Source of the DNA: Bacteroidales bacterium
GTDB lineage: Bacteria; Bacteroidota; Bacteroidia; Bacteroidales; PUMT01
Direction: 5' to 3'
DNA length: 43,157 bases
Assembly (NCBI GenBank): GCA_007120695.1
Contig: SKND01000088.1
Span: 1-43,157 of the forward strand
Below, in pieces: positions 29,007-32,112 of the stretch. The notes beneath the pieces were generated by a model, which had not been told where the DNA came from, did no database searches, and saw only the letters and a list, made by a program, of their open reading frames with translations. Position numbers and translations under genes: made by a program. Positions within the stretch are counted from its first letter, which is position 1; each line of letters opens with the position of its first letter.

Positions 29007-30224
29007 ATGTTTTATACTCATACATTTAACAACGGAATAAGGATCATTCATCACAAGGTGCCTTCACAGGTAGCTCATTGCGGACTATATATCAATGCCG
29101 GCTCCCGGGATGAGAAACCCGGTGAGCATGGTATGGCACATTTCATTGAGCACCTGGTTTTCAAGGGAACTGTCAAGAGAAGGGCGCATCACATTATTAA
29201 CAGGCTGGAAACAGTTGGCGGGGAGATCAATGCCTATACAAGTAAGGAAGAGACCTGCATTTACTCCTCCTTTATGAAGGAAGATCTGGAACGTTCACTT
29301 GAACTTATTACCGACATGACCTTTCAGTCGGTTTTTCCCGAAAAGGAACTGGCCAGGGAGAAACAGGTAATTATTGATGAGATAATCTCATACAGGGACA
29401 GCCCCTCGGAACTGATATTTGACGATTTTGAAGAGCTTGTATTTGATGGCGACCCCTTAGGCAGGAATATTCTTGGCACCCCGAAAAATCTCAAAAAGTT
29501 CGATCGTGAAGATATCCTCAGATTTATTGCCAGCAACTATAAAACAGACCAGATGGTATTCAGCTCGGTTGGCAACCTGGAGTTCAGCAAGGTACTTAAA
29601 TACGCTGAAAAACACCTTGCCCGTCAGTCTCCAAACCTCTCATCAGCCAAACGGAACGGACATATAACTTATAAACCTGCAACAAAGGCAGTAAGAAAAC
29701 GCACTCACCAGACCCATTGTATTATAGGAAATCTTTCATTCGATCTGCATGATAAACGCAGAATGGCTATGGCCCTGCTTAATAATATCCTGGGAGGACC
29801 CGGCATGAGCTCACGTCTGAATCTTGCACTCAGGGAAAGGACCGGGTATGCCTATAATGTCGAGTCGCATTTTACCGCCTATTCAAATACGGGCATTTTT
29901 ACAGTCTATTTCGGTACTGAACGGGATAAGCTGAACAAATGCCGTGCACTTGTGCTGAGAGAATTTGAATCACTCATGAAAAACCGTCTGAGCGCCATCC
30001 AGTTAAAGAGGGCCAAAAGGCAGTTGAGGGGACAACTTACAATTGGATGGGAAAACAAGGAAAGCCTTATGTTGTCAATCGGTAAGAGTTATATGCACTT
30101 CAACAGGGTTGACAGAGTGGAGGAAATTCATGAGAAAATTGAGAATATAACTGCCGGTCAGTTAATGGAGATTGCAAATATTGTTCTCAATCCCGATTCA
30201 CTTTCTGAGCTGACATACATATAA
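29007..30224 (+). CDS. M16 family zinc peptidase
   Basis: A 405-residue protease of the M16 (pitrilysin/insulinase/processing peptidase) family. Seen: the inverted zinc motif H45-F-I-E-H49 in MAHFIEHLVFKGT, the downstream glutamate region LAREKQVIIDEI, the GGPGMSSRLNLALRERTGYAY segment of the C-terminal half, and the usual two-lobe length. No signal peptide is visible, as is typical for the cytoplasmic or matrix-type M16 proteins of Bacteroidota. The last seven codons (SELTYI stop) lie in the first unit of the 25-bp tandem array, so the array grew from the gene's own tail. The substrate is unknown. Confidence 0.92.
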   Translation: MFYTHTFNNGIRIIHHKVPSQVAHCGLYINAGSRDEKPGEHGMAHFIEHLVFKGTVKRRAHHIINRLETVGGEINAYTSKEETCIYSSFMKEDLERSLELITDMTFQSVFPEKELAREKQVIIDEIISYRDSPSELIFDDFEELVFDGDPLGRNILGTPKNLKKFDREDILRFIASNYKTDQMVFSSVGNLEFSKVLKYAEKHLARQSPNLSSAKRNGHITYKPATKAVRKRTHQTHCIIGNLSFDLHDKRRMAMALLNNILGGPGMSSRLNLALRERTGYAYNVESHFTAYSNTGIFTVYFGTERDKLNKCRALVLREFESLMKNRLSAIQLKRAKRQLRGQLTIGWENKESLMLSIGKSYMHFNRVDRVEEIHEKIENITAGQLMEIANIVLNPDSLSELTYI

Positions 30225-30374
30225 ATATTCTGAGCTGATATACATATAAATATTCTGTGCTGAAATACATATAAATATTCTGAGCTGATATACATATAAA
30301 TATTCTGTGCTGAAATACATATAAATATTCTGAGCTGACATACATATAAATATTCTGAGCTGATATACATATAA
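30205..30374. repeat. 25-bp tandem array, seven units
   Basis: Seven head-to-tail units with a period of exactly 25 bp begin at 30205, 30230, 30255, 30280, 30305, 30330 and 30355. Each contains GAGCTGA or GTGCTGA, then TACATATAA. Three unit types differ at two places, in the order A B C B C A B, so units 2-3 and 4-5 form an identical 50-bp duplication. Unit 1 covers the last codons and stop of the M16 gene. There are no spacers, so this is not CRISPR. It ends 20 bp before the methyltransferase ATG. Confidence 0.95.
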
Positions 30375-30393
30375 TATATATTATATTGTAATT

Positions 30394-31032
30394 ATGGAGT
30401 CTCTGAACGAAAGAGAAAATTACATTTTAACCAGCTGCACTCCCGAAGACCCGCTACTGGCAGAACTCAAAAGACAAACATATATCAGGGTGCTGAACCC
30501 GAAAATGATTTCCGGCCATTACCAGGGTAAATTCCTGGAGATGATCAGCTATATGATAAGGCCTGCTATGGCACTTGAAATAGGAACTTTTACGGGTTAT
30601 TCAGCCATCTGTATGGGTCGGGGACTAGCTGACGGGGGAATACTTCACACTATTGACATAAATGACGAGATCAGGGATCTTGCCTCCGGCTATATCGGCA
30701 GAGCCGGACTGGAGAAAAGGATCAGGATGCATACGGGTGATGCACTTAAAATAATCCCCGCACTGGAGGGACCTTTCGATCTTGTTTTTATCGATGGTGA
30801 AAAATCTGAATACAGGGAATACTATAACCTTGTGCTGACGAAGGTAAAAAAAGGTGGATTTATTTTAGCAGATAACGTACTGTGGGATAACAAAGTCTGG
30901 AATCCGGAATATTTCGATGATCAGGATACCAGCCACATAAGGAGTTTTAATGAAATGATCTGCAACGACAACCGGGTTGAAAATTTCCTGTTGCCAATAA
31001 GAGACGGACTGATGATAGTGCGAAAAAAATAG
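30394..31032 (+). CDS. Class I SAM-dependent O-methyltransferase
   Basis: A 212-residue methyltransferase of the caffeoyl-CoA O-methyltransferase-like family 3, transferring methyl from SAM to a hydroxyl. Seen: SAM-binding motif I LEIGTFTGYSAICMG, the acidic turn ILHTIDIND, the FDLVFIDGEKSEY motif with the metal-binding aspartate, and ILADNVLWDNKVWNP with the second metal ligands. Length is normal. No signal peptide. In Bacteroidota this protein often neighbours housekeeping genes and its substrate is not known. Its promoter must lie in or before the AT-rich tandem array; none is clear. Confidence 0.9.
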   Translation: MESLNERENYILTSCTPEDPLLAELKRQTYIRVLNPKMISGHYQGKFLEMISYMIRPAMALEIGTFTGYSAICMGRGLADGGILHTIDINDEIRDLASGYIGRAGLEKRIRMHTGDALKIIPALEGPFDLVFIDGEKSEYREYYNLVLTKVKKGGFILADNVLWDNKVWNPEYFDDQDTSHIRSFNEMICNDNRVENFLLPIRDGLMIVRKK

Positions 31033-31230: not shown

Positions 31231-32112
31231 ATGGCAAGTTATTCAATAAAAGATCTGGAGGAACTCTCAGGAATCAAGGCTCACACAATCAGAATCTGGG
31301 AAAAACGTTACGGAGTAGTCGTTCCGGAACGAACGAATACTAATATCCGTCTCTACAGTGACGAAGACCTCAAGAAACTGCTCAATATTTCTATACTGAA
31401 TAAACACGGCCTGAAAATCTCGCACCTCTCCAGGTTAAGCCAGGACGACCTTAAAGAAAAAGTAATTCATATTTCAAGAGAGACCACCAATACCGGTATA
31501 CAGATAGAGAATCTTATTATATCAATGCTTGATCTTGATGAATGGAAGTTTGACAAGATCCTTTCTGATTCGATAATAAAAATAGGATTTGAAGAAACAC
31601 TGGTCAGTCTTATGCATCCTTTTTTCGAAAAAATAGGACTTCTCTGGCAGACAGGATCAATTAATCCGGCCCAGGAGCATTTCGTATCAAATCTCATGAG
31701 ACAAAAACTTATCGTTGCCATAGACGGCCAGGCACCGGTTCAAAGAGACAACCAGGTTAATTTCATTCTGTTTCTTCATGAAAATGAGCTTCATGAACTC
31801 GGTTTGCTCTTTTACTCCTACCTGCTTAAGAAACATGGCATAAAGGTTATTTATCTGGGACAAGCGGTGCCGTTTCAGGATCTGAAGAAGATAATAAATA
31901 TCCAGAAAGCAGATTATTTTCTCACATCCTTTACTACCGGGATAACTGAGAAGGACCTTAAAAGTTATCTTATCCGCATGTCAGACACATTTCCTGAACA
32001 AACCATATATTATACGGGTTACCAGATATCAAAGATAAATGGTTCATTGCCCGGCAATCTTATCAAAATTGAATCTGTAAAGCATTTTCAGGATATAATA
32101 AAGACTCTGTAA
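31231..32112 (+). CDS. MerR family regulator with B12-binding domain (CarH/LitR-like)
   Basis: A 293-residue transcription factor. Seen: an N-terminal MerR helix-turn-helix (about 1-70; YSIKDLEELSGIKAHTIRIW), a helical four-helix cap (about 85-165) with W139 followed nine residues later by E149-H150, the Wx9EH signature of adenosylcobalamin photoreceptors, and a C-terminal Rossmann-like B12-binding domain with ExHxxG as E186-L-H188-E-L-G191. In CarH this design represses promoters in the dark and is released by light. The histidine after the tryptophan (H132 in Thermus CarH), which ligates cobalt in the light state, is Q140 here, so light behaviour may differ. Carotenoid genes, its common target, are not nearby. 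Confidence 0.88.
   Translation: MASYSIKDLEELSGIKAHTIRIWEKRYGVVVPERTNTNIRLYSDEDLKKLLNISILNKHGLKISHLSRLSQDDLKEKVIHISRETTNTGIQIENLIISMLDLDEWKFDKILSDSIIKIGFEETLVSLMHPFFEKIGLLWQTGSINPAQEHFVSNLMRQKLIVAIDGQAPVQRDNQVNFILFLHENELHELGLLFYSYLLKKHGIKVIYLGQAVPFQDLKKIINIQKADYFLTSFTTGITEKDLKSYLIRMSDTFPEQTIYYTGYQISKINGSLPGNLIKIESVKHFQDIIKTL

Follow-up and report, generated by a model that had tools for sequence, protein, structure and literature searches.

The window analysed here, a stretch of 43,157 nucleotides from a Bacteroidales bacterium (lineage PUMT01; assembly GCA_007120695.1, contig SKND01000088.1), contains a tandem array of seven 25-bp units on the plus strand at 30203..30379, and the origin of this array is legible in the sequence. 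Its first unit carries the last codons and stop codon of an M16 family peptidase gene, while the others fill most of the spacer that leads to an O-methyltransferase gene. Very likely, the array is an ordinary, lineage-specific intergenic minisatellite. It is a new instance of an already known repeat class rather than a new system, and provides a neat example of minisatellite birth at gene ends in which the first copy protects the protein.

Tandem Repeats Finder (TRF) reported a single array at this position with a period of 25, 7.0 copies, 92% matches, no indels and a score of 303, and an independent repeat finder returned a spacing of exactly 25, six times over. Elsewhere in the 43 kb, TRF gave just one further row, a weak one (score 49); the score-303 array is beyond chance. 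Agreement between the two programs bears out the initial annotation, which had described a tandem 25-bp array and placed it at 30205-30374, the right locus but a few bases short at each end. The units begin at 30203 (A), 30228 (B), 30253 (C), 30278 (B), 30303 (C), 30328 (A) and 30353 (B), giving the order A B C B C A B. Variation between them is confined to positions 6 and 12, with additional divergence at the 3' edge of the last unit; since only two internal positions vary, the array is either young or homogenised. As in other minisatellites, several copies (25 bp × 7.0) of a unit of about 10-100 bp are arranged head to tail and lie mainly between genes, with units 2 to 7 in the spacer and unit 1 over the M16 stop codon. 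Unit 1 (type A, 30203..30227, plus strand), the presumed ancestral unit, comprises the coding tail, the TAA at 30222-30224 and the three bases after it. Read on the plus strand, every unit contains stop codons and none an ATG; therefore, the protein is not extended by the array. The minus strand is open across the array as a 70-amino-acid open reading frame (ORF) at 30158-30370, which probably just follows from the unit sequence.

The M16 gene (29007..30224, plus strand; 405 amino acids), recognised from the ORF list, its translation and Pfam PF00675 and PF05193, terminates in ELTYI-stop within unit 1. Unit 1 preserves the C-terminal pattern that is conserved across the genus, LSEL followed by T, S or V and then by Y or F. 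In the two closest relatives (G004 and G009; 75% amino acid identity), the protein ends in LSELSYI, which differs from the tail in the window by a single residue, and the spacer between the M16 stop and the methyltransferase contains no repeats. The presence of one tail and no array in these relatives makes a single tail the likely ancestral state, and the two variable bases of type A, which they share, identify type A as the likely ancestral unit. A search of 60 genomes with the M16 protein gave matches at 1e-60 in 50, and 30 of these loci, including that of the window's own genome, were examined (L032 and L033, which duplicate two of the 30, were excluded from counts). No comparable array was found at the locus in any relative examined, the best candidate being one trivial TRF row of 2.1 copies and score 30. 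With up to two mismatches allowed, the unit pattern occurs at six places in its own genome, all inside the array, and in 0 of 12 other genus genomes. Because the closest relatives have short, repeat-free spacers and the array is absent from the 12 other genus genomes searched, it is most simply a recent lineage-specific expansion. These comparisons uphold the proposal in the initial annotation that the M16 tail was the seed of the array. The observation that the annotation had named as refuting, one identical array shared by all relatives, was not made, as the relatives have none.

The gene pair around the array is conserved. The methyltransferase gene lies immediately downstream of the M16 gene in 25 of the 30 loci and in all 12 genus loci; no methyltransferase match was found in the other five, two of which are near a contig end. 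In the window, the spacer (30225..30393, plus strand) is 169 bases long and consists largely of units 2 to 7; its length in G004 and G009 is 20 and 23 bases. The nine remaining genus members have 44 to 217 bases between the two genes, and the 13 loci outside the genus that include the methyltransferase have −11 to 32.

Replication slippage or unequal recombination probably produced a first duplication of 25 bp straddling the M16 stop codon, after which further duplication of one- and two-unit blocks within the spacer of the conserved pair would have built the present array. A shortest-path calculation, in which duplications of one to three units plus substitutions were allowed, gave a minimum history for A B C B C A B of 7 events with two-unit duplications versus 12 with single-unit duplications only. 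One 7-event path runs from A through AA, AB, ABAB and ABAAB, by two substitutions to ABCAB, and then to ABCBCAB. The event count supports the duplication of a two-unit block that had been suggested from the variant order, although the history is not unique and no one order is proven. Such an array would be tolerated for two reasons: unit 1 keeps the M16 end and stop codon intact regardless of changes after it, and the array does not reach the methyltransferase start. Two considerations weigh against a recent, presumably near-neutral expansion. The nearest relatives differ by 25% in protein sequence and may have lost an older array, although this is the less simple history; and the repeat-free spacers of 44-217 bases elsewhere in the genus weaken the case for an ancestral spacer of about 20 bases. 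The same range indicates that spacer length is not tightly held, which would fit neutrality.

The alternative that survives best, though we consider it improbable, is a length-variable regulatory spacer, in which copy number would set the stop-start distance and thereby adjust methyltransferase mRNA level or translation coupling. It draws on the adjacency of the two genes in most loci, which outside the genus are separated by only −11 to 32 bases, and on the rnc-fpg1 spacer of mycobacteria (ETR-F / VNTR3239). In PMC2734929, this spacer is described as holding 279-358 bp of repeats in the Mycobacterium tuberculosis complex versus 1-54 bp in other mycobacteria, and higher fpg1 mRNA went with longer repeats. 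The likeness is close, as both are lineage-specific repeats that fill the spacer between two co-directional genes. However, unit 1 of the present array covers the stop codon, unlike the rnc-fpg1 repeats, and copy-number variation and a link to expression are documented only for the mycobacterial repeats (PMC2734929). Against a regulatory spacer, the array carries no conserved signal, genus members have long spacers without repeats, and no copy-number variation has been observed, the species being represented by one genome.

The array is also unstructured. Its RNA folds worse than shuffled sequence (z +2.63; 200 of 200 shuffles fold at least as well) and it contains no terminator-like site, so a structured RNA or terminator element was rejected. 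In the 1.4 kb around the array, three terminator-like sites were found where 0.6 would be expected, every one of them within the methyltransferase gene on the minus strand. Promoter-like sites were at chance level, with five versus 4.6 expected; the promoter scan used the sigma-70 consensus, which is a poor fit to Bacteroidetes promoters. No Rfam family reached its gathering score: the two sub-threshold rows had 19.4 bits each where 80 and 100 were required. An effect of the array on mRNA 3' ends or on a methyltransferase promoter is doubtful because the array has neither terminator nor structure, and a promoter of the methyltransferase's own is doubtful since the −11 to 32 bases that separate the two genes outside the genus leave too little room for one. 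Some effect of the array on expression is possible, and if the methyltransferase is influenced at all, the cause would most likely be a passive one, the longer stop-start distance.

We give still less credence to the idea that arrays seeded at stop codons are unusually frequent and recurrent in the genus, with copy number acting as an adjustable operon spacer. Arrays were counted in four genus genomes (101 stretches; 1,035,146 bases including the window) and in three outgroup genomes (20 stretches; 400,000 bases), using a TRF score of at least 70, a period of 8-120 and at least 2.3 copies, and ORFs of at least 90 amino acids called by a simple rule. Of the 39 genus arrays, 14 were within ORFs and 16 between genes, 8 covered a stop codon and 1 a start; all nine outgroup arrays were intergenic, none covering a stop codon (0/9). 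Besides the window's array, three of the stop-covering arrays belong to its own genome, three to G002 and one to G009; G007 yielded zero. That in G009, the closest relative, is a different array (L087:9741-9830; 15 bp × 6.0, 96%) over the stop of the methyltransferase ortholog, and a UDP-N-acetylglucosamine 2-epimerase gene in G002 has its tail and stop codon copied by a 79 bp × 2.8 array (L106:8623-8844). As stop-covering arrays occur in G009 and G002 besides the window's genome, arrays copying gene ends are recurrent in the genus. The initial annotation was right that the origin of the present array can be read, but not that this is unusual, given that 8 of 39 genus arrays, in its own genome and two of three sampled relatives, cover a stop codon.

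An excess at stop codons is not convincing. With the window's array excluded, and with rows of TRF score below 70 or fewer than 2.3 copies, including two weak stop-covering rows (L083 and L092), left out of the placement count, 7 of the 24 genus arrays outside ORFs cover a stop, versus 3.35 expected when one unit is placed randomly (P 0.04) and 8.68 when the whole array is placed randomly (P 0.83). Starts are under-covered by one of the two measures only, with one start-covering array versus 3.08 (one unit; P 0.16) or 6.92 (whole array; P 0.003) expected. Two side observations were made in this material: a 43-bp × 7.2 array in G002 (L103:11180-11488) lies over the stops of a Na/Pi cotransporter gene and a convergent ORF, and a small contig of the window's genome (C392, L058; 5163 bases) is dense with several unrelated tandem arrays.

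That the copy number or order reflects an assembly artefact of a short-read draft genome is very unlikely. The draft consists of 435 contigs and is 88.96% complete, and the 177-bp array is longer than a 150-base read; against this, no exact repeat in the array is longer than 74 bases, so k-mers above that length resolve the variant order. The Cock Soda Lake genomes, to which two relatives (CSSed records) belong, are described in PMC6704655 with 2 × 150 reads and k up to 121, which would argue further against an artefact if the window's genome shares their project.

Least credible is a dispersed or mobile repeat inserted at the M16 stop codon, as proposed for the TAACTGA repeats, which cover stop codons too (PMC4679880), for the unit encodes the M16 gene's own conserved C-terminus, has no second site in the genome, and has no related array among 295 genomes of the order, where weak matches were short or other repeats. 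The order-wide search gave a match in 5 of the 295 genomes including its own, the other four being weak (40-48 bits); the single longer match among them (L041) comes from another array, with a period of 10/20 bp. A single exact 23-base match in viral contigs (L046), inside an ORF, was taken as chance.

Membership in a dispersed repeat family of the MIRU (mycobacterial interspersed repetitive unit) or TAACTGA type was likewise rejected, as the unit is found at one place in the genome. The TAACTGA direct repeats of Beggiatoaceae, cyanobacteria and Bacteroidetes, which overlap upstream stop codons in 13 cases, resemble the present array in being short direct repeats rich in stop codons; however, TAACTGA is one heptamer dispersed over many sites, whereas the 25-bp unit is private to one gene tail (PMC4679880). 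The MIRU-VNTR (variable-number tandem repeat) minisatellites of mycobacteria are intergenic repeats as well, and are used for typing (PMC2734929). MIRUs occupy 41 dispersed sites with units of 40-100 bp, in contrast to the single locus here. Few further reports of arrays overlapping a stop codon turned up in literature listings. If its copy number varies, the array could serve as a strain marker for this uncultured lineage.

Downstream of the array, the O-methyltransferase gene (30394..31032, plus strand; Pfam PF01596), the conserved neighbour of the M16 gene, encodes 212 amino acids. The next gene, at 31231-32112, encodes a MerR-type regulator with a B12-binding domain.
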